DNA of 64,000 nucleotides, from contig PNMW01000065.1 of assembly GCA_013823855.1 (NCBI GenBank), positions 1 through 64,000 of the forward strand, given 5' to 3'. Under the pieces are notes generated by a model, which was given only the letters and a program-made list of their open reading frames with translations, was not told the DNA's origin and made no database searches. A program made the translations under genes and the position numbers. The stretch is from Lysobacteraceae bacterium (GTDB taxonomy: Bacteria > Pseudomonadota > Gammaproteobacteria > Nevskiales > Nevskiaceae). Shown piece after piece: positions 41,195 through 63,426 of this stretch; the first letter of the stretch is position 1; every line of letters begins with the position of its first letter.

Positions 41195-41212
41195 TCGTAG
41201 GGTACCGTACGA
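41195..41212. promoter_or_regulatory. Divergent copy of the TAGTATGG-type palindromic operator
   Basis: TCGTAGGGTACCGTACGA is a near-perfect palindrome (arms TCGTAGGG/CCGTACGA) and matches the 18-bp island operator at 13 of 18 positions. It is 30 bases upstream of acyl-CoA dehydrogenase 1. Confidence 0.5.
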
Positions 41213-41273
41213 CCGATGTAAAGCCGATTTCCCCCGCCGCGAGCGCTGATCGCCGCCGGCAGGGGACGCCGCG

Positions 41274-42440
41274 TCAGTAGGACTTCGGCTGGTCCAGCAC
41301 CTTTTCGGCGATGAACGACAGGATCAGCTGTTCGGTGATCGGGGCGATGCGGGTGACGGTGACTTCGCGCAGCAGCCGTTCGACGTGGTACTCCTTCGCG
41401 TAGCCCATGCCGCCGAAGGTCAGCACCGCCTGCAGGCAGGCGTCGAAGCCGGCGCGGGCACCGAGGAACTTGCCGGCGTTCGCTTCGGCACCGCAGGGCA
41501 GATGGTTGTCGTAGAGCCAAGCGGCCTTTTCGACCATCCGCTGGGCGGCTTCCAGATACATCCACTTTTCCGCCAGCGGATGCTGGATGCCCTGGTTCTG
41601 GCCGATCGGACGACCGAACACCACGCGCTCGCGGCCGTACTTGGCGGCGCGGCGCAGCGCGTCCTGGCCGATGCCGATCGCTTCGATGCCGATCAGCACG
41701 CGCTCCGGATTGAGGCTGTGCAGGATGTAGCCGAAGCCCTTGCCTTCCTCGCCGATGCGATCGGAATCGGGAATGAACAGGTCGTCGATGAAGATCGAGT
41801 TCGAATCGACCGCCTTGCGGCCCATCTTCGGGATCTTGGTGACCGCGATCTTCGAGCGGTCGAGGTCGGTGTAGAAGATGGTGATGCCGTCGGTCGGACG
41901 CTTGGCGTCTTCGAGCTTGGTGGTGCGGGTCAGCAGCATGATCTTGTTGGCAACCTGGGCGGTCGAGGTCCAGACCTTCTGGCCGCGCACGATGTAGCCG
42001 CCGTCGACCTTGGTCGCGAAGGTCTTGATCGCCGTGGTGTTGAGGCCGGCGTCCGGCTCGGTGAAGCCGAAGCAGCACTGGTCCTGGCCCGAGATCAGGC
42101 GCGGCACCCAGCGGGACTTCTGCTCGTGCGTGCCGTAGACCACGATCGGATGCGGCCCGAACAGGTTGATGTGCACCGACGAGGTCGCCGCCATGCCACC
42201 GCCGTGGCTGGCGATCTCATGCATCATGATCATCGCTTCGGTGACGCCAAGCCCCGAGCCGCCGTACTCCTCCGGCATGGTCAGGCCCAGCCAGCCACCG
42301 TCGGCCATCGCCTTGTGGAACTCGCGCGGAAACGCACCATCCTCGTCGCGGGCCAGCCAGTATTCGTCACCGAACGAACGGACTACGGCGCCAACGCCGT
42401 CGCGGATCGCCTGATGATCAGGATTGATCGAGAAATCCAT
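41274..42440 (-). CDS. Acyl-CoA dehydrogenase 2
   Basis: Acyl-CoA dehydrogenase of 388 residues. Motifs: FGFTEPDAGLNTTAIKT, VRGQKVWTSTAQ, FGRPIGQNQGIQHPLAEKWM and FGGMGYAKEYHVERLLREV. At the C-terminal base position it has RIAPITEQLI instead of EGT, seen in a subgroup acting on unusual or CoA-ligated cyclic acids. It lies between dehydrogenase 1 and the MaoC gene, all minus strand. The 108-base gap downstream carries the operator of dehydrogenase 1. Confidence 0.9.
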   Translation of the reverse strand: MDFSINPDHQAIRDGVGAVVRSFGDEYWLARDEDGAFPREFHKAMADGGWLGLTMPEEYGGSGLGVTEAMIMMHEIASHGGGMAATSSVHINLFGPHPIVVYGTHEQKSRWVPRLISGQDQCCFGFTEPDAGLNTTAIKTFATKVDGGYIVRGQKVWTSTAQVANKIMLLTRTTKLEDAKRPTDGITIFYTDLDRSKIAVTKIPKMGRKAVDSNSIFIDDLFIPDSDRIGEEGKGFGYILHSLNPERVLIGIEAIGIGQDALRRAAKYGRERVVFGRPIGQNQGIQHPLAEKWMYLEAAQRMVEKAAWLYDNHLPCGAEANAGKFLGARAGFDACLQAVLTFGGMGYAKEYHVERLLREVTVTRIAPITEQLILSFIAEKVLDQPKSY

Positions 42441-42496
42441 CGGGAAGCTCCAGATTTTTTGAGGAAATTCGGCGTCGGACGGCGGCGCGGACGCGC

Positions 42497-42952
42497 TCAG
42501 GCCGTCGGCTTGCGCAGCATCAGCGCCTGGCGCTGGGTGGTGCAGATCAGCTCGCCGCGCTGGTTCAGGCCTTCGTGCAGGAAGGTGACGATGCCGGCGT
42601 TCGGGCGCGACTTCGATTCGCGAACCTCGAGGACGGTGGTGCGCGAGCGGATCGTGTCGCCGGCGAACACCGGCTTCGGGAACCGGGTGTCGGTCATGCC
42701 GAGATTGGCGACCGTGGTGCCGAGCGTGGTGTCCTGGATCGACAGGCCGATCACCAGTCCCAGCGTGAAGATCGAGTTGACCAGCGGCTGGCCGAATTCG
42801 GTGGTCTTGCAGTACTCGGCGTCGATATGGATCTGCGCCGGGTTGTAGGTCGCGCCGCAGAACCAGACGTTGTCCGATTCGGTGACCGTGCGGCGGATCT
42901 CGTGCTCGATGACCCGCCCCACCGTGAACTGCTCGAAGTAAAGACCCGCCAT
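42497..42952 (-). CDS. MaoC-family acyl-CoA dehydratase/hydratase
   Basis: Hotdog-fold hydratase of 151 residues. The catalytic dyad segment is ATYNPAQIHIDAEYC (Asn/Asp/His pattern of R-specific enoyl-CoA hydratases). FAGDTIRSRTTVLEVRESKSRP is the typical second half. It would hydrate an enoyl-CoA made by the adjacent dehydrogenases. Its promoter region contains a perfect copy of the 18-bp operator. Confidence 0.88.
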   Translation of the reverse strand: MAGLYFEQFTVGRVIEHEIRRTVTESDNVWFCGATYNPAQIHIDAEYCKTTEFGQPLVNSIFTLGLVIGLSIQDTTLGTTVANLGMTDTRFPKPVFAGDTIRSRTTVLEVRESKSRPNAGIVTFLHEGLNQRGELICTTQRQALMLRKPTA

Positions 42953-42989
42953 TGCCGACTCCCGGATAGCCGGCGCGGGGCCGGCGTTT

Positions 42990-43007
42990 TAGTATGGTGC
43001 CATACTA
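42990..43007. promoter_or_regulatory. 18-bp palindromic operator, perfect copy A
   Basis: TAGTATGGTGCCATACTA, arms of 8 bp with a TG centre, 38 bases upstream of the MaoC gene start. The identical 18 bases recur at 63409-63426, 20 kb away. The layout fits a TetR-family repressor site overlapping the promoter. Confidence 0.85.
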
Positions 43008-43047
43008 TCATGCTTGAACTGCAGGACAACAGGGCAGGCGGCCTGGC

Positions 43048-44193
43048 TCACAGCGACCGCGAAATCAGCTCGCGCATGATTTCCGAGGTGCCGCCATAGA
43101 TGCGTTGCACGCGAGCGTCAGCGTACAGCTTGCAGATCTCGTACTCGCGCATGAACCCGTAGCCGCCGAAGAACTGCAGGCAGGTATCGACCAGACGTCC
43201 GTGCATCTCGGTGCACCACAGCTTGGCGATCGATGCGTCGGCCTGGTTGAGCGCATGGCGGTCGTGCTTTTCCAGGCACTGGTCGACGAACGCCCAGCCC
43301 ACCGCCAGCTCGGCCTTCAGGTCGGCCAGCTTGTAGCGGGTATTCTGGAAATCCATGATCGTCTTGCCGAAGGCCTTGCGGTTGTTGACGTAGTCGCGGG
43401 TGATGTCGAAAGCCTTCTGGGCGGCTGCCATCGAAGACACGGCGATGGTCAGACGCTCCTGCGGCAGCTCGCTCATCAGGCTAGCGAAACCGGTGCCTTC
43501 GGCGCCGAGCAGGTTCGTCACCGGCACGGTCACATCGTCGAAGAACAGCTCGGAAGTATCGGACGACAGATGGCCGAGCTTGTCGAGATTGCGGCCGCGG
43601 CGGAAGCCGGGGCGGTCCGCCTCGACGACGATCAGGCTCATGCCCTTCGCGCCCGGCGCATCGGAGGTGCGGGCCACGACGATGACGATGTCCGAATGCT
43701 GGCCGTTGGAGATGAAGGTTTTCGATCCGCTGATCCGGAACTGCTCGCCCTCGCGCACCGCGCGGGTCTTGATGCCCTGCAGGTCGCTGCCGGTGCCCGG
43801 CTCGGTCATTGCGATCGCGCAGACGGTCTTGCCGCTGACCATGCCGGTCAGCCACTTCTGCTTCTGGGCTTCGCTGGCGAGGCTGATCAGGTAGCCGGCG
43901 CAGACGTCGTTGTGCACCGAGATGTCGGTCTGCGGCCCGGCCATGCCGGCATAGGCCAGTTCCTCGACGACGATGGCGTTGTGCCGGAAGCTGCCGCCTA
44001 CACCGCCATAGGCTTCGCCGGCTTGCGGGCACAGCAGCCCGGCTTCGCCGGCCTTGTCCCACATCGTGCGATCGACGATGCCCTGCTCCTCCCAGCGTGC
44101 GAAATGCGGCAGCAGTTCGGTCTTGATGAAGCCGCGAACGGCATCGCGGAACATGCCGTGCTCGGATGAATAGACGGCGCGATTGGCTAGCAC
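43048..44193 (-). CDS. Acyl-CoA dehydrogenase 3 (long-chain-type)
   Basis: Acyl-CoA dehydrogenase of 381 residues starting at GTG 44193, which has GGAG 6 bases upstream; the frame upstream to 44298 is non-coding. Motifs: IAMTEPGTGSDLQGI, ISGSKTFISNGQHSD, RKAFGKTIMDFQNTRYKLADLK, FFGGYGFMREYEICKLYADARVQRIYGGTSEIMRE. The C-terminal IYGGTSE points to the long-chain/IVD-type active site. The alternative base position reads FDITRDY, so Asp may replace the usual Glu. Divergent from the AlkB-type hydroxylase gene. Confidence 0.9.
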   Translation of the reverse strand: MLANRAVYSSEHGMFRDAVRGFIKTELLPHFARWEEQGIVDRTMWDKAGEAGLLCPQAGEAYGGVGGSFRHNAIVVEELAYAGMAGPQTDISVHNDVCAGYLISLASEAQKQKWLTGMVSGKTVCAIAMTEPGTGSDLQGIKTRAVREGEQFRISGSKTFISNGQHSDIVIVVARTSDAPGAKGMSLIVVEADRPGFRRGRNLDKLGHLSSDTSELFFDDVTVPVTNLLGAEGTGFASLMSELPQERLTIAVSSMAAAQKAFDITRDYVNNRKAFGKTIMDFQNTRYKLADLKAELAVGWAFVDQCLEKHDRHALNQADASIAKLWCTEMHGRLVDTCLQFFGGYGFMREYEICKLYADARVQRIYGGTSEIMRELISRSL

Positions 44194-44357
44194 AGGAATC
44201 TCCGGAAAAGCGTGTGAATGATGGACACGGGCAGGCCGCAGGCGCGCGATCTTCAAAGAGCGCTTCCAGACGCGGGCCGCGTAATGGCGGATGACCACGG
44301 TAGAAGTATGGGACGCCGCTTAAAAGTGCGGCCCCGTCACTAAAGACGGGCTGCCGT

Positions 44358-44411
44358 TCGTCAGGTTCCATACCATCTACATTGACATCGGGCTTTGCGG
44401 CTCGGCATCAT
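44358..44411 (+). promoter_or_regulatory. alkB-type gene promoter with operator-like site
   Basis: TCGTCAGGTTCCATACCA (44358-44375) matches the island operator at 13 of 18 positions, best in the right half. Directly after it come TTGACA (44382-44387) and, 18 bases on, CATCAT (44406-44411), a plausible plus-strand promoter for the hydroxylase gene. The AT-rich stretch 44428-44455 follows. The rest of the 350-base gap (44194-44543) holds only a half-site AGTATGGG at 44305-44312. Confidence 0.5.
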
Positions 44412-44543
44412 CCGTTCTGAACACGGTGTTCAATTTTATTGATCATCTAGTTCCAAGCCTGCTTCACGACGCTGGCCGCGAGCCAGGCTTTGCGGGCACG
44501 ATCTACGGCAAACAAACAGCAACAGCCTGAGGAGGCGATCACG

Positions 44544-45662
44544 ATGGACTACTTGAAATACTGGATCCCGGTGGGCGTCGTCGCCGCCGCGTTCTACGGC
44601 TTTGTCGTCGGCGGCGATGCGGTGTGGATCGGCATCCTGTCGTTCCCGGTGCTGGCGGTGCTCGACACGCTGGCCGGCCGCGACTACAGCGTCCGCAAGA
44701 TGAGCAATGCCACGCTCGCCAATATTCCGATCTGGCTGTGCGCGATCGGTCCGGTCAGCCTGTACTTCGCGATGGCCTGGCGCGTCGCCCAGGGTGATCT
44801 CACCACCGTGCAGCTGGTCGGTTCGGTGCTGAGCCTGGCCTGGATGGGCGTGATTCCGCTGGTGCCGGCCGCCCACGAGCTCTACCACATGCGGGGCGCG
44901 CTGCCGCGCACTGTTGGCCGCTACTCGCACCTGTGCATCCTCGACTGCACCCGCGACATCGGCCACGTCGTCGGTCATCACATCGACGTCGCCACCCCGG
45001 ATGACGGCGACACCGCCGCCCGCGGCACCAATCTCTACTCGTTCACCTGGAATGCCTTCCTCGAGAGCACCGCGTACGCCATGAAGATGGAAGGCAACGC
45101 GCTGAAGAAGAAAGGCAAGTCACCGTTCCACATCAGCCACCGTGTCTACCGGGCGCTGCTGGCGCTGGCCGTCTTCCACGCGCTGATCTTCGCGATCGGC
45201 GGCCCGCTGGCCAACCTCGTCGCCCTTGGCGGCCAGGTGATCGCCCGCTTCTGGGTCGAATCGTTCAACTACTTCCAGCACTACGGCGTGGTCCGCCTGC
45301 CGGGCGCGCCGATCGGCCGCCGCCACCTCTGGAACCATCTGGGCTGGTTCTCGCGGACCATGGCATTCGAGATCACCAACCATGCCGACCACCACCTGAA
45401 CTCGTATCAGGTGTATTACAAGCTGGTGCCGCACAAGGAAGCGATCACCATGCCGAGTGTGTTCGTCTGCTTCCTGTCGGCGCTGATCCCGCCGCTGTGG
45501 CACAACGTGATCATCAAGCCGGCGCTGAAGCGCTGGGATCTGGAATTCGCCACCCGCGAGGAACGCGCACTGGCCGCCGAACAGAATCGCAAGGCCGGCT
45601 GGCCGGACTGGCAGAACGAGCAGGGCGCGATCGTCGGCAAGGCAGCCACCGTCGGCGTCTGA
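44544..45662 (+). CDS. AlkB/XylM-type membrane hydroxylase
   Basis: Integral-membrane di-iron hydroxylase of 372 residues, the length of XylM/CymA-type rather than classical AlkB (about 400). Histidine boxes: HELYH (111-115), HVVGHH (141-146), the AlkB signature NYFQHYG (242-248), and HADHH (280-284). Six hydrophobic segments flank them. It would hydroxylate a terminal methyl group of an alkane, aryl-methyl or terpene. No rubredoxin or reductase gene is adjacent. GGAGG lies 9 bases before ATG 44544. A strong terminator follows, so the gene is probably transcribed alone. Confidence 0.9.
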   Translation: MDYLKYWIPVGVVAAAFYGFVVGGDAVWIGILSFPVLAVLDTLAGRDYSVRKMSNATLANIPIWLCAIGPVSLYFAMAWRVAQGDLTTVQLVGSVLSLAWMGVIPLVPAAHELYHMRGALPRTVGRYSHLCILDCTRDIGHVVGHHIDVATPDDGDTAARGTNLYSFTWNAFLESTAYAMKMEGNALKKKGKSPFHISHRVYRALLALAVFHALIFAIGGPLANLVALGGQVIARFWVESFNYFQHYGVVRLPGAPIGRRHLWNHLGWFSRTMAFEITNHADHHLNSYQVYYKLVPHKEAITMPSVFVCFLSALIPPLWHNVIIKPALKRWDLEFATREERALAAEQNRKAGWPDWQNEQGAIVGKAATVGV

Positions 45663-45680
45663 CCGCTGGCGGCATGAAGA

Positions 45681-45712
45681 GCGGCGTCCCACGGGGCGCC
45701 GCTTTTTTTTGG
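45681..45712 (+). terminator. Terminator of the AlkB/XylM-type gene
   Basis: AGCGGCG (45681-45687) pairs with CGCCGCT (45698-45704), followed by nine T, 18 bases after the stop. Confidence 0.93.
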
Positions 45713-45748
45713 CCGTCGTACCAGCTACGGGCTTCTCTTATTGGCACT

Positions 45749-45768
45749 CTAGCATGCTAGTATGATGC
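45749..45768. promoter_or_regulatory. Overlapping palindrome and operator half-site before the FAD oxidoreductase
   Basis: CTAGCATGCTAG (45749-45760) is a perfect 12-bp palindrome and runs into TAGTATGATGC (45758-45768), which matches the left 11 bases of the island operator at 10 positions. It lies 40 bases before the oxidoreductase start. Confidence 0.55.
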
Positions 45769-45808
45769 TTCCTGAAACCCAAGGCCGCCGTGCGGCCGGA
45801 GACTCGCC

Positions 45809-47299: not shown

Positions 47300-48049
47300 A
47301 TGAACACTTCCGTGAAGACGCCGCTTGCCGGCACCGAAAGCCCCCGGGACGCGCGCTCCGGCTGGGCCCGCAGCATGGTTCGCGGCATCCGCCCCCACGA
47401 CCTGGCCGGCAAGGCGGGCGAGATTGCGGCCGAGCTCGAGGATCGGCTGATTCGCGGCGGCTACCGCTTCGGCGAAACCCTGTCGATCTACGCGCTGGCC
47501 ACCCAGTTCAACGCCAGTCGCCAGCCGGTGGCCGCCGCCGTGCTGTACCTGAAAAGCGTCGGCTATCTCGACGTGATCCCGCAGGTCGGCTGCCGCGTGG
47601 TGTCACCGTCGGCGCAGGAGGTGCACGACTTCTTCGTGATGTTCTCGCGCACCGAAGCGGTGATCGCCCGCTTCGCGTCCGAACGTCACACGGCGCAGGA
47701 AGCGGCCGAACTGCTGGCACTGGCCCAGGAGATGGCCGCCAATCCGTTCCAGAGCCGCTACGACCGGCGCGCGATGGCCGATGGCATCTCCCACTTCCAC
47801 GACCAGATCAGCGCCATGGCTCGCTCGCAGCTGCTGGTCGACCGGATCAGCAACCTGCGACGGATCTTCCGCTTCTATCTGAGCCAGCAACGCCCGGCGG
47901 ACAGCGATCCCGGCGGCACACCCGCGTCGATGAACCAGCTGCGGCTGGCGCTGGCGCGGGCCATCGCCAGCCGCGACGGCGCGCTGGCCGAGCAGGCCAC
48001 CAGCGACTACATCCTCAACGACCTGGACGACTGGGCGCGGGTCGTCTGA
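47300..48049 (+). CDS. GntR-family transcriptional regulator (FadR/FCD-like)
   Basis: Regulator of 249 residues. The winged helix is at about 40-100 (LEDRLIRGGYRFGETLSIYALATQF, SRQPVAAAVLYLKSVGYLDVIPQVGCRVV), followed by an all-helical effector domain (about 105-245) of the FCD type with HFHDQISAMARS carrying a likely metal-ligand histidine. ATG 47300 is used; no strong ribosome site is visible. It follows the FAD oxidoreductase by 63 bases on the same strand and may regulate the island in response to an acyl-CoA. Confidence 0.82.
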   Translation: MNTSVKTPLAGTESPRDARSGWARSMVRGIRPHDLAGKAGEIAAELEDRLIRGGYRFGETLSIYALATQFNASRQPVAAAVLYLKSVGYLDVIPQVGCRVVSPSAQEVHDFFVMFSRTEAVIARFASERHTAQEAAELLALAQEMAANPFQSRYDRRAMADGISHFHDQISAMARSQLLVDRISNLRRIFRFYLSQQRPADSDPGGTPASMNQLRLALARAIASRDGALAEQATSDYILNDLDDWARVV

Positions 48050-48070
48050 CCCGACGCCCTGCCCGCCGCC

Positions 48071-48721
48071 TCAGGATTTCTCGTCGGCAAAGATCGCGCT
48101 GGCGCAGATCTCGGCCACCGCCTTGATCAGCCGGTCCAGTTCCTCGCCATCGCGGAGCGGGCTGAAGCGGCCGAGGTAGGTCACCACGAACCAGGACAGC
48201 GCATCGGCGATGTCGTCGCCGGTGCCCGGTCGGCAGCCGCCGCTGCGGTTGACGGCCGCGATCGCGGCCCGGCAGCGGCCGCAGATGGTGTCCATCATCT
48301 TCTGGAACTGCAGGCCGAGGGCGTCGTCCTGGCGCGCGCTGTCAGCGAACGCCGACAGGATCGCCCGATGCTTCCGGAACGTGCGGCTGACGCCGACCAT
48401 CGTGGTCTGCATCTCTTCGCGACGCGGCCGCTGGCCGCCGGGATCCGGGCCCAGCCAGCTGCCGGCGCTGTCGACGATCTCGTCGGTGATCAGGGCCATC
48501 AGCCGCGCGATCAGCTCGTTCTTGTCACGGAAATGCGAGTAGAAAGTGCCGCGCGACATGCCGGCTTCCGCCGCCAGTTCCTCGACCGACAGCTGCACGT
48601 AGCGCTGGCCCTGCTCCAGCATCCGCTCCATCGCCGCCAGCAGGCGTTCCTCGATGGTCAGCTTCTTGCCGCCGTGCTTGACACGGGTGCGGCGGGTCGG
48701 GCGAGGCGCAATCGGCAGCAT
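48071..48721 (-). CDS. TetR-family regulator 1
   Basis: TetR repressor of 216 residues. Helix-turn-helix: VEELAAEAGMSRGTFYSHFRDKNEL (about 46-70). The ligand domain has several cysteines (ICGRCRAA and GGCRPG) in its centre. It is convergent with the GntR gene, separated by 21 bases. It is one of two TetR proteins that could bind the shared palindromic operator. Confidence 0.88.
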   Translation of the reverse strand: MLPIAPRPTRRTRVKHGGKKLTIEERLLAAMERMLEQGQRYVQLSVEELAAEAGMSRGTFYSHFRDKNELIARLMALITDEIVDSAGSWLGPDPGGQRPRREEMQTTMVGVSRTFRKHRAILSAFADSARQDDALGLQFQKMMDTICGRCRAAIAAVNRSGGCRPGTGDDIADALSWFVVTYLGRFSPLRDGEELDRLIKAVAEICASAIFADEKS

Positions 48722-48779: not shown

Positions 48780-49463
48780 TCAGGCCTGTTTGCGCCAGGC
48801 CCGCGTGAACAGCGTGACCAGCGATTCGACCCAGCGCCGGCGGCTGGCCGGATGGCGACCCGGCGTCAGCAGCACGTAGCGGCCGGCGCCGCTGGCCAGC
48901 CCGGAGATCTGCAGCGCCGCGTCGTAAGGCGAATCGATGTCGATCTGACCGGCATCCTTCAGCGCCTGCAGGTAATCGACCAGCGGTGCGGAAATGTGGG
49001 CGGAGTCGTCGAGCATCGCCCGCCCCAGCTTCGGAAAGCGCCCGGCCTCGGCGATCACCATGCGCATCACCGCGAGGTAGTCCGGATGCGTGTAGCCGTC
49101 GTAGAGCTTGGTGATGATCCGGCGCAGCGCCGCGTCCAGCGGGATGCCGGCGTCGGCGACCGTGCCCAGCCTCTCGCGCACGCCGAGCTGCGCGCGCCGC
49201 GCGACCTCGACGAACAGCTGGTCCTTGGTCTCGTAGTGTCGATACAGGGTGATCTTGGCGACCTTCGCCGCCCGGGCGATGCCTTCCATGCTGGCCGCCT
49301 CGAAGCCGCGAGCGATGAACACCGCCAGCGCGGCATCGAGGATGCCTTCGCGCAGTGCCTCGCCTTCCTCGCGGGTCGGCCGGCCGCGGGCGCGACGCGG
49401 CGACTTGGCGACGGCGTTGGCGGCGATGGGCGGAGACGCGTCAGACATGGCGGCCGTGATCAT
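48780..49463 (-). CDS. TetR-family regulator 2, candidate master of the island operator
   Basis: TetR repressor of 227 residues. Helix-turn-helix: MEGIARAAKVAKITLYRHYETKDQLF (about 58-83). The N-terminal tail is Arg-rich (RRARGRPTREEGE). The ligand domain has LYDGYTHPDYLAVMRMV as in many fatty-acid/xenobiotic-sensing members. ATG 49463 and 49448 are both possible. It is divergent from a dienoyl-CoA-reductase-like gene; the shared 113-base gap contains a copy of the island operator, which makes this protein the best candidate to bind it. Confidence 0.88.
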   Translation of the reverse strand: MITAAMSDASPPIAANAVAKSPRRARGRPTREEGEALREGILDAALAVFIARGFEAASMEGIARAAKVAKITLYRHYETKDQLFVEVARRAQLGVRERLGTVADAGIPLDAALRRIITKLYDGYTHPDYLAVMRMVIAEAGRFPKLGRAMLDDSAHISAPLVDYLQALKDAGQIDIDSPYDAALQISGLASGAGRYVLLTPGRHPASRRRWVESLVTLFTRAWRKQA

Positions 49464-49532: not shown

Positions 49533-49550
49533 TCGTATGGTCCCATATTA
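49533..49550. promoter_or_regulatory. Island operator, copy C (TetR2/SDR intergenic)
   Basis: TCGTATGGTCCCATATTA matches TAGTATGGTGCCATACTA at 15 of 18 positions and keeps the TATGG/CCATA symmetry. It is 27 bases before the SDR start and 70 bases before TetR regulator 2, so it could control both. Confidence 0.7.
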
Positions 49551-49576: not shown

Positions 49577-50470
49577 ATGGCGCTTTATTCGTCGGACGCA
49601 CTGGCTGGCAAACGCATCCTCGTCACCGGCGGCGGCACCGGTCTCGGCAAGGGCATGGCGAAGCATTTCGCGGCACTCGGCGCCCACGTCCACCTCTGGG
49701 GCCGTCGCATCGACGTGCTCGAGGCCGCCGCCGCCGAGATCAATGCCGATCACGCCAGCCCGCGCGCCTTCGTGCAGACGGTGGACATCCGCAAGGCCGA
49801 TCTGGTCGATGCCGCCGTCGGCGAGATCTTCGACAAGTTCGGCCCGCTGACCGGTCTGGTCAACAACGCCGCCGCCAACTTCATCGCGCCGACCAAGGAT
49901 CTCTCCCCGCGCGGCTTCGAGGCGATCACTTCGACGGTGATGAACGGCGGCTTCTTCACCACCCACGCGGTCGCCAAGCGCTGGATCGCCCTCGGCCTGC
50001 CGGGCTCGGTGGTGTCGACCCTGGTGACCTGGATCTGGACCGGCTCGGCTTACGTCGTGCCTTCGGCGATGGCCAAGGCCGCGATCAACGCGATGACCAT
50101 GTCTCTGGCCGTCGAATGGGCGAAGTACGGCATCCGCCTGAACGCCGTCGCACCCGGCCCGTTCCCGACCGAGTACGCCTGGCAGATGCTCAGCCCGACC
50201 GGCGAAGCGGCCGTCGGCGCCACCCAGGCCGATGAAGTGCCGGCCGGCCGCTACGGCAAAATCGAAGAACTTGGCAATCTGATGACCCTGCTGATGAGCG
50301 ACGGCGCCGACTACATCACCGGCGAAACGATCTGCATCGATGGCGGCCATCATCTGGCGGCGCCATCGACCTTCGCCGGTCTCAACAAGCTCGACGACGC
50401 GGCCTGGACCAAGATCAAGGAAGCGGCGCAGGCTGCGACCCAGGCCAGCAAGGCGCAGCGTTCGGTCTGA
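49577..50470 (+). CDS. SDR resembling 2,4-dienoyl-CoA reductase
   Basis: Short-chain dehydrogenase of 297 residues. Cofactor motif TGGGTGLGKGMA, NNAAANF, then GSAYVVPSAMAKAAINAM. The last segment matches the spaced active site of dienoyl-CoA reductases, in which the Tyr and Lys are not in a standard YxxxK. APGPFPTEY follows. It would reduce dienoyl-CoA in degradation of unsaturated chains. Controlled by the operator at 49533; a terminator follows. Confidence 0.88.
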   Translation: MALYSSDALAGKRILVTGGGTGLGKGMAKHFAALGAHVHLWGRRIDVLEAAAAEINADHASPRAFVQTVDIRKADLVDAAVGEIFDKFGPLTGLVNNAAANFIAPTKDLSPRGFEAITSTVMNGGFFTTHAVAKRWIALGLPGSVVSTLVTWIWTGSAYVVPSAMAKAAINAMTMSLAVEWAKYGIRLNAVAPGPFPTEYAWQMLSPTGEAAVGATQADEVPAGRYGKIEELGNLMTLLMSDGADYITGETICIDGGHHLAAPSTFAGLNKLDDAAWTKIKEAAQAATQASKAQRSV

Positions 50471-55636: not shown

Positions 55637-56479
55637 TCAGGCCGCCAGACGCGGCTGCAGCCAGTCGGTCAGATCCTTGAACACCCGGGCGCGATCGGCC
55701 GGCAGCTCGTTGAAGATCTCGTGATACAGGCCGTCGTAGACCTTCAATGTCTTGTCGGTCGAGGAGATCCGCTCGTGGACCATGCGGCTGCCGGAGACGC
55801 CGGCCAGCTTGTCGTCGCTGCCATGCAGCAGCAGCGTCGGCACGCTGATCGCCGACAGCAGCGCCGGCACGATCTCGACGAAGCGGACGATCTCGGCGAG
55901 GGTGCGCACCGGGATCTTGCCGTGGGCGTTGAGCGGATCGTTGGCGTACTTGGCGACCTCGTCGGGATCGCGACTGACCAGGCTCGGATCGACCTGGAAC
56001 ATGCCGAGCTTCGGCACGATCGAGGCCAGCAGCTTGGCCACCGGTCCCAGGTACGGCGGCGCGCCATCGAGCACCACCGCCGGGCCGGACAGGATCAGGC
56101 CGCTGAGCTTCTTGCCATGCTTGATCGCATAGCTCAGCGAAAGAGCGCCACCCATGCTGTGGCCGAGCAGGAACAGCGGCCGTGCCGGCTGCAGACGCTT
56201 GGCGCGATCGACCAGGGTGTCGAGATCGGCGACGGCGTTGGCGAACTTGTCGACCAGGGCGCGCACGCCGTCGGACTTGCCGTGGCCACGGTGATCGATC
56301 GCGTGGACCACGCAGCCGATGCCGGCCAGCTGCTCCGCCACTTCACGATAGCGGCCACCATGCTCGCCCAGGCCGTGGGCGATCACCACGGACGCCTTCG
56401 GCGCGCCAGCCGGCGCCCAGGTCTGGAAGTGGATGCGGGTCTTGTTGACGCCTTCGAAACTGCCTTCGCTGTGTTTCAT
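55637..56479 (-). CDS. Monoacylglycerol lipase-like alpha/beta hydrolase
   Basis: Serine hydrolase of 280 residues of the monoglyceride lipase type. HGLGEHGGRY is the oxyanion-hole segment, LLGHSMGGAL the nucleophile elbow, HGSDDKLA the Asp and GLYHEIFNE the His. It would release fatty acid from monoacylglycerol or lysophospholipid. Last gene of the lipid operon, 21 bases after the WS/DGAT gene, so storage-lipid synthesis and turnover appear co-expressed. Confidence 0.92.
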   Translation of the reverse strand: MKHSEGSFEGVNKTRIHFQTWAPAGAPKASVVIAHGLGEHGGRYREVAEQLAGIGCVVHAIDHRGHGKSDGVRALVDKFANAVADLDTLVDRAKRLQPARPLFLLGHSMGGALSLSYAIKHGKKLSGLILSGPAVVLDGAPPYLGPVAKLLASIVPKLGMFQVDPSLVSRDPDEVAKYANDPLNAHGKIPVRTLAEIVRFVEIVPALLSAISVPTLLLHGSDDKLAGVSGSRMVHERISSTDKTLKVYDGLYHEIFNELPADRARVFKDLTDWLQPRLAA

Positions 56480-56500
56480 CGGAACTCGGCTCTTGTCTGC

Positions 56501-57997
56501 TCAGTGCGGGTCTTTGACGCGGGCGGGGGTGCTGCGGGCCGATGATGATGCCTGGGTTGCCGCCGGCGTCCGGCCCAGCGCCAGCACTTCATCGAGTCCC
56601 TCGCGGAAGCATTCCAGCAGCAATTCTGGCTCGGTGACAGCGGCACGATCGCTGTTGATGCCGATGCAGCAGCGGCCGTTGTGCGACAGCATCGCGATCA
56701 TCATTCCGCAGCCGGGCACCGGCGCATACGGCCAGTACTGGCGCACTTCGGCGCCAGCGAAATAGACCGGATACGGAATGCCCGGCACGTTGCTGATCTG
56801 CGCGTCCTGGGCGGTGGTGAAATCGGCGGTGAGCTTGGTGACCACGCCGATCGGTAGCCGGGTGACCACCGGCATCATCCGGATCATCACGTCCAGCGCC
56901 GGTTCGGCGCGAGTATCGCGAACGAAATGCTGGATGTGGCGGATGCGGGTGATCGGATCGCGCTCGGCGACCGGGGCCGCGTACTGCGAGCCGGCGAACT
57001 TGTTGCCGCCCATCGCATCGGCCTCGGTCCGCAGGCTGATCGGGAAGCCGATCGGCATCTGCTTGATCGCCACACCCAGCCGCTCGTGATAGAGCCGGAA
57101 GCCGCCGATCAGTCCGGCCAGGAACAGGTCGTTGATCGAGCCGTTGGCCGCCTTCGACGCCGCCTTGAAATCGGCCAGCGGCAGTTCGATGCCGTCGAGC
57201 CGCCACGACAGGCTGCGGCGCTTGAACAGGCCGGAGCCGGGCACCGGCTTGATGCCGAGCATGCGCTTCGCGGACGCGAGGTAATCCAGCAGCTGCTGGA
57301 CGTCTTCCGGGTACTTGAGCAGCGCCGAGGCCTTGCGGCCGAGCGCACCGGCGGTGCCGCGCGCCGTGGCCGGCAGCGACGCCAGCCGGCCGCGCAGCGC
57401 CTTCAGGCCGAGGCTGCGGGCGGTCGCGGCCCGGCGGCTGCGCGGGATCGCCGGCACCGGACGCGGCTGCGCATCGCGATCGCGGTGGAAGATCCGCTGC
57501 AGCAGCTGGACGATGCCGAGGCCATCGGTCGCCGCGTGGTGCATCTTCAGCACCAGTGCGGCACGGCCGCCTTCGAGGCCTTCGAGCAGCGTCGCTTCCC
57601 AGGGCGGACGCGCCCGGTCGAACGGCTGCATCGCGATGATGCCGGCGGCGTCGAACATCTGCCGCTCGCTGCCCGGCGCCGGCAGCTGCTGGCGGCGCAC
57701 GTGGTAGTCGAAATCGAAGTCCGGATCCTCGACCCAGGTCGGCGGGCCGACCGTGGTCGGCACCACCACCTTCTGCCGGAAACGGCGCACCGCCGCGACC
57801 AGCCAGCGGAATTCCGCCTGCAGGCGTTCCCATTCCGGCGCGGTGTCGAAGACCATGATCGAGACGATCGTCGAGCGCAGCCGGGGGTCGACCTCGGCAA
57901 GCCACATCACCGATTCGAAGGCGCTCATCGCGTCCGGGCCGCCCCAGTCGCGCAGCTCGTCCAGCAGCGGGTCGGTTTGCCTCGTTGCCTTGCTCAT
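56501..57997 (-). CDS. Wax ester synthase/diacylglycerol acyltransferase (WS/DGAT)
   Basis: Bifunctional acyltransferase of 498 residues making wax esters or triacylglycerol from acyl-CoA. The active-site motif HHAATDG (H153, H154, D158, G159) is intact. The PLWE-type segment appears as RPPWEATLLEG, and ISNVPGIPYPVYFAGAEV is the conserved C-terminal part. This strongly suggests storage-lipid formation. Same operon as gpsA, HAD-PlsC and plsB, giving a full path from glycerol-3-phosphate. Confidence 0.95.
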   Translation of the reverse strand: MSKATRQTDPLLDELRDWGGPDAMSAFESVMWLAEVDPRLRSTIVSIMVFDTAPEWERLQAEFRWLVAAVRRFRQKVVVPTTVGPPTWVEDPDFDFDYHVRRQQLPAPGSERQMFDAAGIIAMQPFDRARPPWEATLLEGLEGGRAALVLKMHHAATDGLGIVQLLQRIFHRDRDAQPRPVPAIPRSRRAATARSLGLKALRGRLASLPATARGTAGALGRKASALLKYPEDVQQLLDYLASAKRMLGIKPVPGSGLFKRRSLSWRLDGIELPLADFKAASKAANGSINDLFLAGLIGGFRLYHERLGVAIKQMPIGFPISLRTEADAMGGNKFAGSQYAAPVAERDPITRIRHIQHFVRDTRAEPALDVMIRMMPVVTRLPIGVVTKLTADFTTAQDAQISNVPGIPYPVYFAGAEVRQYWPYAPVPGCGMMIAMLSHNGRCCIGINSDRAAVTEPELLLECFREGLDEVLALGRTPAATQASSSARSTPARVKDPH

Positions 57998-58034
57998 CGT
58001 GTTCCGCTCGTGTTTGCCATCGTGGATTGCAGAT

Positions 58035-59042
58035 TCAGCCGGCGCTGTCTTCGGCGCCCGCCGCCAGCTTGCGCAGGCCGCGGAACGCCTGCACCGCGCC
58101 GTGCTCGCCCTTGACCACGGCGGCGACTTCAGCGGCGATCGGCATCACCACGCCGTGCATCGCCGCCAGTTCCATCACCACGCTGGAGGTCTTGATGCCC
58201 TCGGCGACCATGTTCATCGAGGCGACGATTTCCGCCGTGGTCTTGCCGGCCGCGAACTGCACGCCGACCTGCCGGTTGCGCGACAGCGGGCTCATGCAGG
58301 TGGTCAGCAGATCGCCGAGGCCGGTCAGGCCGGAGAAGGTTTCGGCGCAGCCGCCGAGCGCCACCCCGAGCCGGGTGATTTCCGACAGGCCGCGGGTGAT
58401 GACCATCGCCCGTGTGTTCTCGCCGACCGACAGCCCTTCGGCCATGCCGGCGGAAATGGCGATCACGTTCTTCAGCGGTCCGCCCAGCTCGCAGCCGATC
58501 ACGTCGCGGTTGGTGTAGACCCGGAACACGGCGCTGGTGAACAGCGGCTGCAAGGCCTTGGCGACGTGGTCGTCGGTCATCGCCAGCACGGCGGCGGCGG
58601 CCATGCCCTGCAGCACTTCGCGGGCGATGTTCGGCCCGGCCAGAAGGCCGGCCGGATGCCCGGGCAATTCCTGATGGATGATCTCGGTCATCCGCGAATG
58701 CGTGCCCTGTTCGAGCCCCTTGGCCAAGCTGATGACCGGCACCCACGGCCGCAGCAGCGGCGCGACGATGCGCAAGGTGTCGCGGAAGCTGTGCGATGGC
58801 ACGCCGACCACCAGCACGTCGCAGTCGCGTACCGCTTCGTCGAGCGAGGACGTGGCCAGCAGCCGCGAACACAGCGGCAGGCCCTTCAGGTAGCGCGAGT
58901 TGCGATGTTCGCGATTGATCTCGTCGGCCGTGGCCGAATCGCGCGCCCAGATCGTGGTCTGGGTGTTGCGCGACGCCAGCGAGGCGACGGTGGTGCCCCA
59001 GGAACCGGCACCGAGCACGGCAACACGGATCTTGCGACTCAT
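58035..59042 (-). CDS. gpsA: Glycerol-3-phosphate dehydrogenase [NAD(P)+]
   Basis: Cytosolic enzyme of 335 residues making sn-glycerol-3-phosphate from dihydroxyacetone phosphate. The cofactor motif [14 protein letters not shown] is at residues 6-19, SLAKGLEQG and [10 protein letters not shown] in the middle, and the catalytic-lysine region [24 protein letters not shown] lies 9 bases before ATG 59042; the extension to 59111 overlaps the previous gene. Placed in the lipid operon it supplies the backbone for PlsB. Confidence 0.95.
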
Positions 59043-59046
59043 GTTC

Positions 59047-60489
59047 TCAAGCCTCCGGCCAGTGGTTGAGCGTATCGACATACATCTGCCGGACTTCAGC
59101 AATGTGGGCATCGAGCCTGTCGAGCTTCCATTTCGTCACATCGATGCCGGGAAGCACCGCGACCTGCACGGTGCCGGCGCGCATCGTCTGATCGTTGCGG
59201 CCCATGATCTCGCCGGCATTGCGGATCACCACCGGCACGATCGGCACGCCGGCCTGCATCGCCATGTGGAACGCGCCCTTCTTGAACTTGCCGACCTTCG
59301 GCGTCCACGAACGCGTGCCTTCCGGGGCGATGCACATGCTCAGGCCGGACTTGATGCGCTCGACCGCCGGCTTCAGCGCGTCGATCGATTTCTGCGAATC
59401 GGCGCGGTCGAGAAACGCCACGCCGGCCATCTTCATGTAGCGGCCGAAGCCCGGCACCCGCGCGGCCTCGGCCTTGGCCACGCCGCTGAAGCTGGAACGG
59501 ACGATGTTCATCATCACGAACATGTCGAACTTCGACTGGTGATTGATGATGAACACGCAGGGCCGGTGGGCGTGCAGGTGTTCCTCGCCGGTCACCTCGA
59601 TCTTCACGCCAAGCACCGCCATCGCGGCATCGCTGGCGGCAGTGGTGATGAAATCGGCGGCGCGCCGGCTGTCGCCGGTCAGCCGCTCCAGGCCGAGGCC
59701 GGCGACGAAGCTGGCGCCCATCGCCGCGTAGGCGCCGACGGTGCGCGCCATCGCGCCGCTCGGCCCGCGTGAACGGCGCGGAAAGCGCAGGATCGGCCAG
59801 CCGAGTTCCTGCGCCACCTTTTCCAGCGCAGGCTTGGGCTGGATCGGCGTTGGCTTGCCGACGGTCTTCAGGAACGCGATGTCCTCGTTGCCGTTGGCGT
59901 AGCCGTAGCTCGCTTTCAGGTTGACGCCGTGCGCCTTGGCGAACGCCTTGACGCCGGCGGCCTTGCCGTCGCCCCAGGCCGGCAGGCCGTCGAGGCCGCC
60001 GGTGAGCTTGCCGTTGCGGACCATCGCCCGGGTGCAGACGATGTGCTCGATGCCGTATTCCTGCGCCAGCGGCTCGATCTGGTAGAGCGTGGCCGACGAG
60101 GCGATGGCGACCGTGTGACCTTTCTTCTGATGCGCGTCGATCAGCTTCCAGGATTCCGGAAACAGCGTGGTCGCGGTCTTTTCCAGCCACAGGCGTCGCC
60201 ATAGCGCCCGCATGTCGGCCTCGGTCTCGCCGGCCCAGTCGAGGATGCCCTTGGCGATCACCTCGAAGAATTCCTCGTCGGCCAGATCGGCCTTGCGGCT
60301 GAGCTTCAGCGTGTCGAGGATCTCCTTGGTGCCCAGCTCGCCGCGCTTGATGCGGTCGAAGAAGTAGGCGGCGGCGGAATAGCCGTCGATCAGGGTGCCG
60401 TCGTAGTCGAAGAAAGCGCCGATCTTCGGCCCGGAGGGGCCGTCGGCGATGCGCTGGAGCTGCCGCTCCAGAATGGGATTGGCGGTCAT
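59047..60489 (-). CDS. HAD phosphatase fused to 1-acylglycerol-3-phosphate acyltransferase (PlsC-type)
   Basis: Two-domain protein of 480 residues. The HAD-IB domain (about 20-225) has D28-Y-D30-GT, IASSA and GNEDIAFL, as in SerB-like hydrolases. The acyltransferase domain (about 280-475) has NHQSKFD (HxxxxD motif), [13 protein letters not shown] and APEGTRS. Such fusions are widespread near WS/DGAT genes in lipid-storing bacteria. The second domain makes phosphatidic acid; the HAD part might dephosphorylate it or a related lipid. Its start overlaps the plsB stop (TGATG). Confidence 0.92.
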
Positions 60490-62390
60490 CAGCTTCCGGT
60501 TTCCGGGGTAACGGCGTGAGCGGCGGCGTGACGCGCCTGATCCAGCTTTTCGATCGCGGCCAGTCGTTCGACGACCGAGGCCAGTTCATCGGCGAAGGCA
60601 CGGCGGCGCCCGGCGAGATCGGGCACGCCGGGTTGGTCGGGGTCCCCGCGAAGTCGTTTTTCACTTCGCGGGGTGGCGTTCAGCAGATCACGATTGGCGG
60701 CCAGCGACAGCGCATTGCCGAACACTTCACGCGACACGCATTCCGGGCTGCTCAGACGCTTCTGCAGCACGTACTGGCGACCGACCTTGACGCATTCCTC
60801 GGTCAGCTTCTTCTTGTCGATCTTGGCATCGGCCGCTTGTGCGGCCAGGCGGTCGGCGACGATGTAGTACGCCTCGATGAACGGCGTCAGCACCCGGTGG
60901 GCGATCAGGAACGGCGCGCCGAGCAGCAGAGCCTTGCGGCCTTCGACGGTGACTGCCCGCTGCCGGAACTTGGCGTCGAACAGTCGCGATTCGGCCTTCT
61001 GTTCCTCGCGATAGGCGGCCTTGTCGCTGAAGAAGAAATCGAACTTCAGCAGGTCGCGCAGCGCGAATGCCGACTGCCAGGCGCGCTCCAGCGGACCGGT
61101 CAGGTCTTCCATCGAGGTATCGAGCAGTGCCACCTCGAAGATCGCGCGGTTGATGAACCAGTGCACGGCACTATTGCGATAGAACGCCGCCACCGAGTGC
61201 TGGCCAGGTTCGATGGCGTAGACCACTTCGATGCCGGCGTCGTAGCGGCTGATGACGCCGCCATCGACCAGGCTGCCGAGCGTCGCTTCCACGCCTTCGC
61301 GGGTCTGCAGGTCTTCCAGATGGGTGCTGGGCAGGCCGCGGGCTTCGGCGTAGTCGAGCAGCGGCAGCACCAGTTCGAGCACTTCATCCAGGGTCAGCGC
61401 ACGATCACGGACGCCGAGCAGCGCCAGGGTGACCAGCGCGTTGGCGGTGACCGGTGTCACGCGGTTGATCCGCTGGAACACCTCGAACGCGATCTTGGCG
61501 ACCGTCCATTTGCCCGGGCCGTCGGCATCGGCGCGGGCCAGCGCCTCCTTCAGGCTCAGCGGCTCGCCGAAGCGGACATAGGCATTGCCGATCAGCTTCT
61601 GCTGGGTGCGCGCATAGCCGGCCAGCCACAGCAGGTTTTCCTTGGCCTTGGCAGCACCCGCTTCCTCGGCCGCCATCACGCCGATCTCGTGCATCTGGTC
61701 GTAGGTGGTCGACACCGGCACCAGCAGCATGTCGTCGGCGCCACCGCTTTCGATCGCCGACACCAGATAGCTCAGCAGGCCGTACTTCGGCGGGCGGAGC
61801 TTGCCGGTACGGCTGCGGCCGCCTTCCATGTACCACTCGAGGTTCTTGCGCTGCGAGGCCAGCCAGGCCAGATACTCGCGGACCACCAGCTTGTAGATCT
61901 CGTCGTCCTGGAAGCTGCGCCGGATCAGGATGCCGCCGGCGCGGCGGATGATCGTGCCGAGCGGCCAGAAGCCGAGGTTGTTGCCGCCGAGGATATGGTT
62001 GCGTGCCAGGCCGTTGTCGCGCAGCAGGCGTGACAGGATGAAGGCATCGGCGTAGGAACGATGCGTCGGCAGATAGACCAGCGCATTGGTTTCGTTGAGC
62101 TTTTTCAGGTTCGCGAGGGCGTCGAGATCGGCATCGACGGTCCAGGCCCGGGTGTGCAGCGGCCCGAGGCCGTAATCGAACATCGCCGCGAACGCCGGGC
62201 TCTGCACGGTGACGATCTCTTCCAGCCCCTTCAGCGCTTCGGCCGCAACCTTGTCCACCGGCAGCTTCAGCTGCTTCGCCAGCTTTTCGATCTGCCCGAC
62301 GAAGCGCGGCGACTTCGACACCTGCCGGGCCACATGGCGGCGCTGGATCAGGGTCGCGGCGACGACCGGGTTCAGGTTCATGGGGTTCAT
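60489..62390 (-). CDS. plsB: Glycerol-3-phosphate acyltransferase (PlsB family)
   Basis: Membrane-associated acyltransferase of 633 residues starting phospholipid/triacylglycerol synthesis; shorter than E. coli PlsB (about 807). Acyltransferase motifs: LPTHRSYADAF (HxxxxD), GGILIRRSF and YMEGGRSRTGK, then LLVPVSTTY. ATG 62390 has GGAG 7 bases upstream and overlaps the preceding stop (ATGA), so the longer open frame is rejected. Oddity: near residue 592 about 22 residues (TPRSEKRLRGDPDQPGVPDL) interrupt the C-terminal helix. The DNA there is a perfect 11-bp palindrome (60644-60673), apparently an in-frame inserted repeat. Confidence 0.92.
   Translation of the reverse strand: MNPMNLNPVVAATLIQRRHVARQVSKSPRFVGQIEKLAKQLKLPVDKVAAEALKGLEEIVTVQSPAFAAMFDYGLGPLHTRAWTVDADLDALANLKKLNETNALVYLPTHRSYADAFILSRLLRDNGLARNHILGGNNLGFWPLGTIIRRAGGILIRRSFQDDEIYKLVVREYLAWLASQRKNLEWYMEGGRSRTGKLRPPKYGLLSYLVSAIESGGADDMLLVPVSTTYDQMHEIGVMAAEEAGAAKAKENLLWLAGYARTQQKLIGNAYVRFGEPLSLKEALARADADGPGKWTVAKIAFEVFQRINRVTPVTANALVTLALLGVRDRALTLDEVLELVLPLLDYAEARGLPSTHLEDLQTREGVEATLGSLVDGGVISRYDAGIEVVYAIEPGQHSVAAFYRNSAVHWFINRAIFEVALLDTSMEDLTGPLERAWQSAFALRDLLKFDFFFSDKAAYREEQKAESRLFDAKFRQRAVTVEGRKALLLGAPFLIAHRVLTPFIEAYYIVADRLAAQAADAKIDKKKLTEECVKVGRQYVLQKRLSSPECVSREVFGNALSLAANRDLLNATPRSEKRLRGDPDQPGVPDLAGRRRAFADELASVVERLAAIEKLDQARHAAAHAVTPETGS
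60644..60673. repeat. Palindromic element inserted in frame in plsB
   Basis: CCCCGCGAAGT (60644-60654) and ACTTCGCGGGG (60663-60673) form a perfect 11-bp inverted repeat with loop CGTTTTTC. The surrounding protein segment is of a different character (Arg/Pro/Asp-rich). It resembles a REP/RPE-type mobile palindrome landed in a coding region without a frameshift. Confidence 0.65.
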
Positions 62391-63247
62391 GAGACGACTC
62401 CGCTGACCGCGCTCACCACGCCGTCGGCACGCGTCGTGGTGGCGACGATCACGGCGCTCACCTGTTCGGGATCGTCGTACATCGGCACGTGGCCGCAGCC
62501 GGTGACGGTCAGCGCTTCGGCACCCTGGACAACCGAGGTCAGCGCCGCGCCGTAGCGGCGATACGGAATCACCTTGTCGTGTTCGCACCAGGCAATCCGC
62601 ACCAGCGGCGGATTGGCCTTGAACGGCTTGATGCCACCGACCTTGCCCATGTTGTCGAGCAGCGACGGCAGCATCGTGGTGTCGCGCATCGACCGCATCG
62701 CCCGGCGGCTTTCATCGGGCGGCACGCGGTCGCCGCGCTCCATGCCCTGCTTGTTCAGCGCCCGGCGCATGAAGCCGAAGTACAGCAGCAGCGAGAACAG
62801 GAAGATCAGCAGCGGCAGCAGCGCGAAGACGATCCGGAACGACTTGGCGATCGCCTGGTAATCCTCCTGCGTCTGCCAGCCGCCGGCCGGCGACAGCGCG
62901 GTGACCGATTGCGCGAAGCCGCGTCGCGCCAGTTCCAGCGACAGCCAGCCGCCCAGCGAATTACCGGCGACATGGGCGCGCTCGATACCGCGCGCTTTCA
63001 GATCGGCGATCAGCAGGTCAGCGAGGACATCGACCGTCGGCGACACGCCGTCCGGAATCGGCGGGCCGCCCGGATGTCCGGGCAGGGTCGGGGCGATCAC
63101 CCGATGCCGCTTCTCGAGCAGTGGCAACACCGGCTTCCAGATGTGCCAGGTCCCGCCGAGCCCGTGCAGCAGCACCAATGTCGAGCCGCTGCCGCCTTCG
63201 TATGCCTCTCCCACTGCATGGCTGCCGTCCACCTGTCCCCCCCGCAC
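62387..63247 (-). CDS. Alpha/beta hydrolase of the lipid operon
   Basis: Hydrolase of about 286 residues. LLHGLGG is the oxyanion segment, VAGNSLGGWLS the nucleophile elbow, CEHDKVIP the Asp and GCGHVPMYDDPEQV the His. A hydrophobic helix near residues 140-160 (FALLPLLIFLFSLLLYFGF) suggests membrane association. The start is uncertain: GTG 63247 or GTG 63232. First gene of the six-gene lipid operon, overlapping plsB by 4 bases; a lipase, esterase or acyltransferase role in lipid turnover is likely. Confidence 0.85.
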   Translation of the reverse strand: MRGGQVDGSHAVGEAYEGGSGSTLVLLHGLGGTWHIWKPVLPLLEKRHRVIAPTLPGHPGGPPIPDGVSPTVDVLADLLIADLKARGIERAHVAGNSLGGWLSLELARRGFAQSVTALSPAGGWQTQEDYQAIAKSFRIVFALLPLLIFLFSLLLYFGFMRRALNKQGMERGDRVPPDESRRAMRSMRDTTMLPSLLDNMGKVGGIKPFKANPPLVRIAWCEHDKVIPYRRYGAALTSVVQGAEALTVTGCGHVPMYDDPEQVSAVIVATTTRADGVVSAVSGVVS

Positions 63248-63408
63248 CGTCGATGTCGTTGCCTGGCGCGTGTCATGACCTGCACGGCCCGGATTCAGGA
63301 TGCTCGATTCTGCTTGCAGCGAAATACGGATTGCCCGTACTTCGGTCTTGTATCAGATGCGATACCGACCGGGCAGCAGCTTGTTGCGACCTGAATTGTT
63401 CGACTTAG

Positions 63409-63426
63409 TAGTATGGTGCCATACTA
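63409..63426. promoter_or_regulatory. 18-bp palindromic operator, perfect copy B
   Basis: TAGTATGGTGCCATACTA, identical to 42990-43007. It overlaps a possible -10 (CATACT, 63420-63425) whose -35 (TTGTTC, 63396-63401) lies 18 bases upstream, so a bound repressor would block the SDR promoter. The remaining 287-base gap (63248-63534) also serves the divergent lipid operon. Confidence 0.85.

Follow-up and report, generated by a model that had tools for sequence, protein, structure and literature searches.

We found that an 18-bp palindrome recurs in the promoter regions of a catabolic gene cluster of a Nevskiaceae genome (Lysobacteraceae bacterium, GCA_013823855.1), and it is quite probably the operator of a TetR-family repressor, here most likely the TetR2 protein encoded within the cluster, which would co-control the genes behind it as one regulon. 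The window, that is the whole stretch of 64,000 nucleotides analysed, is contig C17 of a 3.87-Mb assembly of 87 contigs that is 88% complete. This genome is coded G000, and its relatives G001 and so on. Site scores are given out of 16, and mismatches to the full 18-mer are used where stated. The candidate operators of the window are as follows.

42990..43007: operator TAGTATGGTGCCATACTA, exact copy, before the MaoC and acyl-CoA dehydrogenase 2 (ACAD2) genes; its minus-strand arm TAGTAT (43002-43007) is the likely -10 box
63409..63426: operator TAGTATGGTGCCATACTA, exact copy, in the divergent gap between the lipid operon (-) and the terminal SDR gene (+)
49533..49550: operator TCGTATGGTCCCATATTA, 15/18 match to TAGTATGGTGCCATACTA and 14/16 by arms, in the divergent gap between TetR2 (-) and a dienoyl-CoA-reductase-like SDR gene (+)
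41195..41212: operator TCGTAGGGTACCGTACGA, 12/16, before the ACAD1, ECH, acyl-CoA ligase and IcmF genes
44358..44375: doubtful candidate TCGTCAGGTTCCATACCA, 12/16, between ACAD3 and alkB

The motif is a perfect inverted repeat of 8 bp around an asymmetric 2-bp centre (TG or CA), with the consensus TAGTATGG-NN-CCATACTA and A/T-rich flanks. The original prediction had assigned six sequences to it, the five listed above and a half-site at 45758, and each of the six is present in its place with the number of matches reported. Their unity as one motif holds for the sites at 42990, 63409, 49533 and 41195, which are conserved in related promoters. The copy at 44358 is doubtful: out of 17 AlkB promoters only the one in this window reaches 12/16, with 10/16 versions nearby in two relatives. 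The sequence at 45758 does not belong to the motif and instead overlaps a different perfect palindrome, CTAGCATGCTAG, considered below. The identity of the two exact copies was also said to exceed chance, and this is borne out by simulation. None of 100 dinucleotide shuffles gave matches at up to 3 mismatches, and a first-order Markov simulation of the window expects 0.1 occurrences of 12/16 and produced no higher score in 60 runs; the actual window contains five sites of at least 12/16, every one intergenic and all within the span 41195-63426. The similarity of the exact copies ends with the 18 bp, their flanks being unrelated (13/40 and 9/40 identical positions), and therefore the motif is not a dispersed repeat.

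Searching the whole assembly with up to 3 mismatches to the 18-mer yielded five places, against none for the reversed control: 42990, 63409 and 49533 in the window, C11:38934 before an aldehyde dehydrogenase gene, and C10:36650. At up to 2 mismatches, the 58 genomes of the family contain 102 forward matches against 4 for the reversed control (summed over the table), and the 59 genomes outside the family contain 6 against 13. Any match at this level occurs in 26 of the 117 genomes. Two or more matches are present in 14 of the 18 genomes of the genus, the other four having none, and in 7 of the remaining 40 genomes of the family. The forward excess is thus confined to the family, so that the motif is a property of some members of the family and no chance word of GC-rich genomes. 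Two further candidate sites of the own assembly, C10:36650 and C18:32532-32534, are both intergenic; the latter gap (L172:10532, or G000:C18:32532) holds the palindrome TGGTATGCAACCATACCA, and a TetR gene with a 12/16 site is found 5 kb away.

The position of the sites relative to genes was analysed in the loci fetched from the genomes, 1.58 Mb of partly overlapping sequence in which 89% of the bases are coding. These loci were mostly fetched for holding sites, though not for the intergenic position of the sites, and orthologous sites are not independent. Genes were called with a simple in-house caller, and the counts leave out duplicates as well as any site close to the end of a locus. Of the 126 distinct sites scoring 13/16 or higher, 118 have a called start no more than 400 bp away. 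By the strict count, 118 are free of any called gene, 5 extend over a gene end and 3 are wholly inside genes; by a looser rule, under which a site is genic only if its centre is 30 bp or more within a gene, 125 are intergenic and one is genic. The matches are therefore mostly intergenic and promoter-placed, and the random scatter, genes included, that the original prediction had named as its refutation is not what the data show.

The fairest test of conservation is provided by the MaoC gene, since its orthologues were located by gene search and not by site. All 13 orthologues of at least 77% identity in Nevskia have the site, which starts 49-60 bp before the ATG, while its flanks change. For the other promoters the threshold was 12/16, and most of the loci had been fetched because of their sites. 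The site is found at all ACAD1 (17/17), ABhyd2 (8/8) and ECHb (5/5) promoters and at most of the SDR-end (14/15), aldehyde dehydrogenase (ALDH; 13/14), HpcH (6/7), 461-aa protein (5/6) and SDR-DECR (11/15) promoters. Lower counts were obtained for AlkB2 (4/8), ECHc (6/11), ADHzn (4/7), ACAD3 (4/17), the FAD oxidoreductase (FADox; 1/3) and AlkB (1/17), and no site was found at the MoOx (0/7), CoAtransA (0/7) and YCF48 (0/3) promoters. In G021, sites are located before ACAD1, the hydrolase/GPAT operon, ALDH and the orthologue of the terminal SDR gene. The site at 41195 is supported as an operator because all 17 ACAD1 promoters hold it. As the sites are kept in related promoters, the proposal of a catabolic regulon bound at promoters is strongly supported by the comparison of sequences.

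We then considered the architecture of 178 promoters, oriented to the downstream gene, by mapping -35-like hexamers (at least 4/6). These hexamers peak at -23/-22 before the palindrome (21 and 14 of 178) and again at -10/-9 (20 and 17 of 178), with a background of 4.6; other peaks, inside the palindrome and at its edge, arise from its own letters. Either block contains a hexamer in 89 promoters, compared with 48 in two control blocks, and therefore the pattern holds for part of the promoters. The peak at -23/-22 fits the near-arm TAGTAT as the -10 box. The one at -10/-9 fits the far-arm TACTAT, with the palindrome inside the spacer, a reading formulated after the peak was seen. The predicted promoter elements of the window are listed below.

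43024..43029 (-): MaoC -35-like box TTGTCC, N16 to TAGTAT
63444..63449 (-): -35-like box TTGTCC of the hydrolase/GPAT operon, N17 to TAGTAT
63400..63405 (+): -35-like box TCGACT of the terminal SDR gene, N16 to TACTAT (63422-63427)
41217..41222 (-): TTTACA of the candidate ACAD1 promoter, N17 to TACGAT (41194-41199)

In G002, G013, G015 and G016, a TTGACC hexamer stands before MaoC at the same 16-bp spacing. The operator thus appears to overlap the predicted core promoter, and its place on the -10 box suggests repression by exclusion of the polymerase. A palindrome might instead act as an RNA hairpin or terminator, or be a dispersed repeat, without serving as an operator at all. Its perfect 8-bp inverted repeat agrees with such a role, as does the location of the 42990 copy, which is also downstream of ACAD3. 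We regard this as scarcely credible in view of the concentration of sites near called starts, the unrelated flanks and the fixed spacing at which -35-like boxes are enriched. In addition, a 2-nt centre makes a poor hairpin loop.

Two TetR genes are located in the cluster, next to the site at 49533.

48780..49463 (-): TetR2, predicted repressor with a TetR_N domain and an AefR-like C-terminal domain PF14246 (Pfam: PF00440, 9.2e-16; PF14246, 4.8e-17)
48071..48721 (-): TetR1, behind TetR2 with a 58-bp gap and probably co-transcribed with it; missing from some motif-bearing genomes

Orthologues of TetR2 (at least 61% identity) were found in 13 of the 61 genomes searched, the own genome included, and all 13 genomes bear the motif. 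The best match in 21 further genomes of the family (G038, 2.5e-43) is far from the orthologues. A site of at least 12/16 is present within 400 bp upstream of TetR2 for 12 of the 13 orthologues. The 12 named loci coding TetR2 relatives belong to six Nevskia metagenome-assembled genomes, two Panacagrimonas genomes including P. perspica DSM 26377, whose TetR2 orthologue is 71% identical, one Sinobacteraceae and two unclassified Gammaproteobacteria; the last is a distant match of 24%. A survey of TetR promoters covered the TetR_N matches of G000, G030 and G031 (37, 19 and 26, respectively; 85 genes including duplicates). Among the 33 distinct TetR proteins behind the 37 domain matches of the own genome, only TetR2 has a promoter site of at least 13/16, and one TetR on C18 has a 12/16 site in a search at 11/16 or more. 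No site of at least 11/16 was found near the starts of the TetR genes of G030 (17 distinct) and G031 (25 distinct).

Another regulator, TetR3, is associated with the motif in relatives and was not found in the own assembly. It can be aligned with TetR2 over 47-74 residues only, at 36-45% identity. Its orthologues (at least 68%, the query included) number nine among the 117 genomes, and all nine genomes bear the motif; six of them have a 14-15/16 site in the TetR3 promoter, one has an 11/16 site, and two have none. As a negative control, TetR3 paralogues of 34-42% identity had a site of at least 11/16 in 0 of 21 loci. TetR2 and TetR3 occur together in five genomes.

For the co-occurrence table, a genome was taken as motif-bearing if it had two or more sites, which applies to 21 of the 58 genomes of the family. 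TetR2 is encoded in 13 of these 21, and TetR2 or TetR3 in 17. The table for either regulator comprises 17 genomes with regulator and motif, 0 with the regulator alone, 4 with the motif alone and 37 with neither (Fisher p 3e-11, uncorrected for kinship). This co-occurrence, together with the site in the promoter of TetR2 itself, supports TetR2 as the best candidate binder in this genome, as had been predicted from its divergent promoter.

A number of observations weigh against the proposed regulon or its assignment to TetR2. The related genomes in the co-occurrence count are not independent, and, as TetR2 is encoded inside the cluster, its co-occurrence with the motif partly reflects the presence of the cluster. 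The TetR2 gene of G002 stands further off without a site in front of it, and the SDR gene of that genome keeps a 12/16 site. Four genomes, G011, G015, G030 and G041, have the motif without TetR2 or TetR3; all but G030 are drafts. Since some motif genomes lack TetR2, it cannot be the binder in every relative. The G030 assembly consists of one contig of 98% completeness and has six sites of 13-15/16 in its cluster, and therefore another factor probably acts there. Among the promoters, the 84% MaoC homologues of G038 and G055, which belong to another genus, have no site, and neither do 15 more distant MaoC homologues including that of G007. The gap around 49533 was searched for -35 boxes, and none better than 3/6 was found for TetR2 or SDR-DECR. 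The three sites wholly and five partly in called genes belong here too, although some starts may be called too early, and a G035 homologue of ETF-quinone oxidoreductase (ETF-QO), a probable target described below, lacks an upstream site, its 15/16 match being located at the end of the gene.

The persistence of sites in G030, G015, G041 and G011 could also mean that the real binder is some other regulator encoded elsewhere, with TetR2 and TetR3 as mere targets carrying the site. A regulator does not need a site in its own promoter, and the comparison of G000, G030 and G031 yielded five TetRs shared as reciprocal best hits, with no other link to the motif. We consider such a binder unlikely, because within the family the motif accompanies TetR2 or TetR3 in all 17 genomes that encode one of them, and both regulators are absent from the 37 genomes without the motif; moreover, one of the five shared TetRs falls in a TetR3-like group that is also present in motif-free genomes. 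Beside the G030 cluster we noticed a MerR gene (L228:3924-4610), a candidate binder in that genome; among the fetched loci its only relative is a 72% homologue in G032, which argues against a wider role.

TetR1 might be the binder itself, or might form a heteromeric or layered pair with TetR2, as the TetR2-TetR1 tandem is found in G000, G002, G005, G014, G016, G010 and G013. However, no match to TetR1 was found in G006 and G008, which both contain the motif and TetR2; G007 has a match of 30% only, and none of 14 loci with TetR1 paralogues located apart from TetR2 has a site that reaches 12/16. TetR1 was rejected as the binder because it is missing from several motif genomes, and any such role for it is very unlikely.

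A third regulator of the cluster belongs to the GntR family and is located near the second palindrome.

45749..45760: CTAGCATGCTAG, perfect 12-bp palindrome before the FAD oxidoreductase gene, outside the 18-bp regulon
47300..48049 (+): GntR/FCD regulator (Pfam), downstream of the FAD oxidoreductase gene

The palindrome CTAGCATGCTAG precedes the FAD oxidoreductase in all three genomes where the FADox-GntR pair was found, namely the own genome, G002 and G030 (FADox was sought in the fetched loci). In the window alone, its occurrence at 2 mismatches does not exceed chance expectation, and its support comes from this conservation; it is perhaps the operator of GntR. Control of the 18-bp sites by GntR would agree with its place in the cluster and with its retention in G030, which has neither TetR2 nor TetR3. 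Nevertheless, its close orthologues (at least 68%) are confined to G000, G002 and G030 among 61 genomes, with four more matches at 32-46%, whereas the motif occurs in 21 of 58 family genomes, and the adjoining FAD oxidoreductase has the different palindrome in 3 of 3. GntR was rejected on this lack of co-occurrence, and the idea is extremely improbable. Our preferred binder of the 18-bp sites in this genome is TetR2.

The predicted targets of TetR2 in the window are as follows.

42497..42952 (-): MaoC-type hydratase (Pfam)
41274..42440 (-): ACAD2, 56 bp after MaoC, in a putative operon with it
39957..41165 (-): ACAD1
49577..50470 (+): 2,4-dienoyl-CoA-reductase-like SDR
55637..63232 (-): neutral-lipid operon of alpha/beta hydrolase, GPAT, HAD/acyltransferase, GPDH, WS/DGAT and alpha/beta hydrolase genes (Pfam)
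63535..64000 (+): terminal SDR, continuing past the window (Pfam of a 97% relative in G005)

ACAD1 is followed on the same strand by the ECH, acyl-CoA ligase and IcmF genes, down to 33811, with gaps of 62-156 bp, probably in one operon. The intergenic gaps of the neutral-lipid operon range from -4 to 37 bp. The regulon is wider than first reported, as it probably includes in trans the aldehyde dehydrogenase and ETF-QO genes on other contigs. The former follows C11:38934, and ALDH promoters of relatives also hold the site. ETF-QO is supported by two genomes, with a site 120 bp upstream of the gene in the own contig C6 (G000:C6:86734, L328:2035, 13/16) and in G005 (L331:8426, 14/16). Its membership in the regulon would make sense because ETF-QO accepts electrons from acyl-CoA dehydrogenases.

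In relatives, the motif is also found in front of enoyl-CoA hydratases, a lyase, a condensing enzyme, alcohol dehydrogenases and a 2-hydroxyacyl-CoA-dehydratase-like pair. At L115:7155-12738, TetR3 adjoins such a pair, a BcrA-type ATPase and a second AlkB-like protein, an unexpected arrangement beside an oxygenase. In G017, two sites located 182 bp apart before an acyl-CoA ligase gene (L335:341 and L335:523) are possible paired operators. The motif clusters of relatives contain DUF1302, YCF48-like and MMPL (G005) and DUF1329 (G030) proteins, the same four kinds as AmeA-D of the monoterpene RND system AmeABCD of Castellaniella defragrans, as given in PMC6394551. These proteins, encoded outside this window, are only a lead for an apolar substrate, and our guess is that it is apolar and possibly branched or terpenoid. 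Steroid catabolism was dropped as the pathway, given the matches of the CoA-transferase pair to 3-oxoacid CoA-transferase models and those of the reductase, below the cut-off, to BenC-like models.

The sequences themselves show the sites with their position and conservation, the enrichment of -35-like boxes and the co-occurrence with TetR2. From these we infer TetR2 binding, repression, the operons, the ligand and the substrate, and we propose the following mechanism. A TetR2 dimer would bind both 8-bp arms, and, as one arm occupies the -10 place in many promoters, its binding would keep RNA polymerase off. Through the shared divergent gap, TetR2 would also act as a repressor of its own gene and of TetR1 behind it. 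The repressor may be released when its C-terminal domain binds an intermediate of the pathway, perhaps an acyl-CoA or a similar lipophilic metabolite. Release would lead to joint expression of the acyl-CoA dehydrogenases, MaoC, the acyl-CoA ligase, IcmF, the SDRs and the GPAT-WS/DGAT storage-lipid operon, and would probably add the aldehyde dehydrogenase and ETF-QO in trans.

According to PMC5343134, PsrA and FadP belong to the TetR regulators and have 11.1 and 17.9 target genes on average. Like these proteobacterial regulons, the one predicted here places several fatty-acid degradation operons under TetR-family control. The operator here is TAGTATGGNNCCATACTA. In contrast to PsrA and FadP, the predicted targets extend to neutral-lipid synthesis and probably to ETF-QO, and the motif rises above the control in only one family among the 117 genomes searched. 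TetR2 scores 19 bits against the NCBIfam PsrA model, which has a cut-off of 300, and is therefore not that PsrA. KstR and KstR2 of actinobacterial steroid catabolism are TetR repressors that control their own genes and act through numerous palindromic operators spread over a large catabolic island. The system predicted here resembles them in the autoregulation and in the many palindromic operators of a catabolic island. Unlike KstR itself, TetR2 scores 28.6 bits against the KstR model with its cut-off of 280; steroid pathway genes were not identified among the annotated proteins. TetR2 also resembles AefR-like TetR repressors, with the C-terminal domain PF14246 and a match of the solved AefR 3cdl to the TetR2 profile (1.4e-16); this likeness is at the domain level only, and among solved structures a different regulator, 8wrf, matches best (2.1e-25). 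The TetR of PMC9736018 was set aside as a match, as its motif is a different one of 13 bp.

A literature search with the letters of the motif returned nothing relevant by title among the matches listed, and a limited search of the open-access literature found no description of such a regulon. The kind of system is known, and the regulon itself appears to be newly described.

The distribution of TetR2 and TetR3 raises the possibility, which we hold with somewhat less than even confidence, that the operator has outlived its repressor: the site and its regulon would be conserved while the TetR was exchanged, with TetR2 in some genomes, the distinct TetR3 in others, both in five, and another factor in G030. 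If true, this would be a replacement of regulators under a fixed operator, and some species would have two repressors with different C-terminal domains acting on the same sites. If TetR2 and TetR3 both read the site, the family would offer a natural series for studying such regulator swaps. For Nevskia, Panacagrimonas and their relatives, the analysis provides a concrete operator and a candidate regulator for a large catabolic island, in which one switch would tie together acyl-CoA oxidation, probably electron disposal through ETF-QO, and storage-lipid synthesis.

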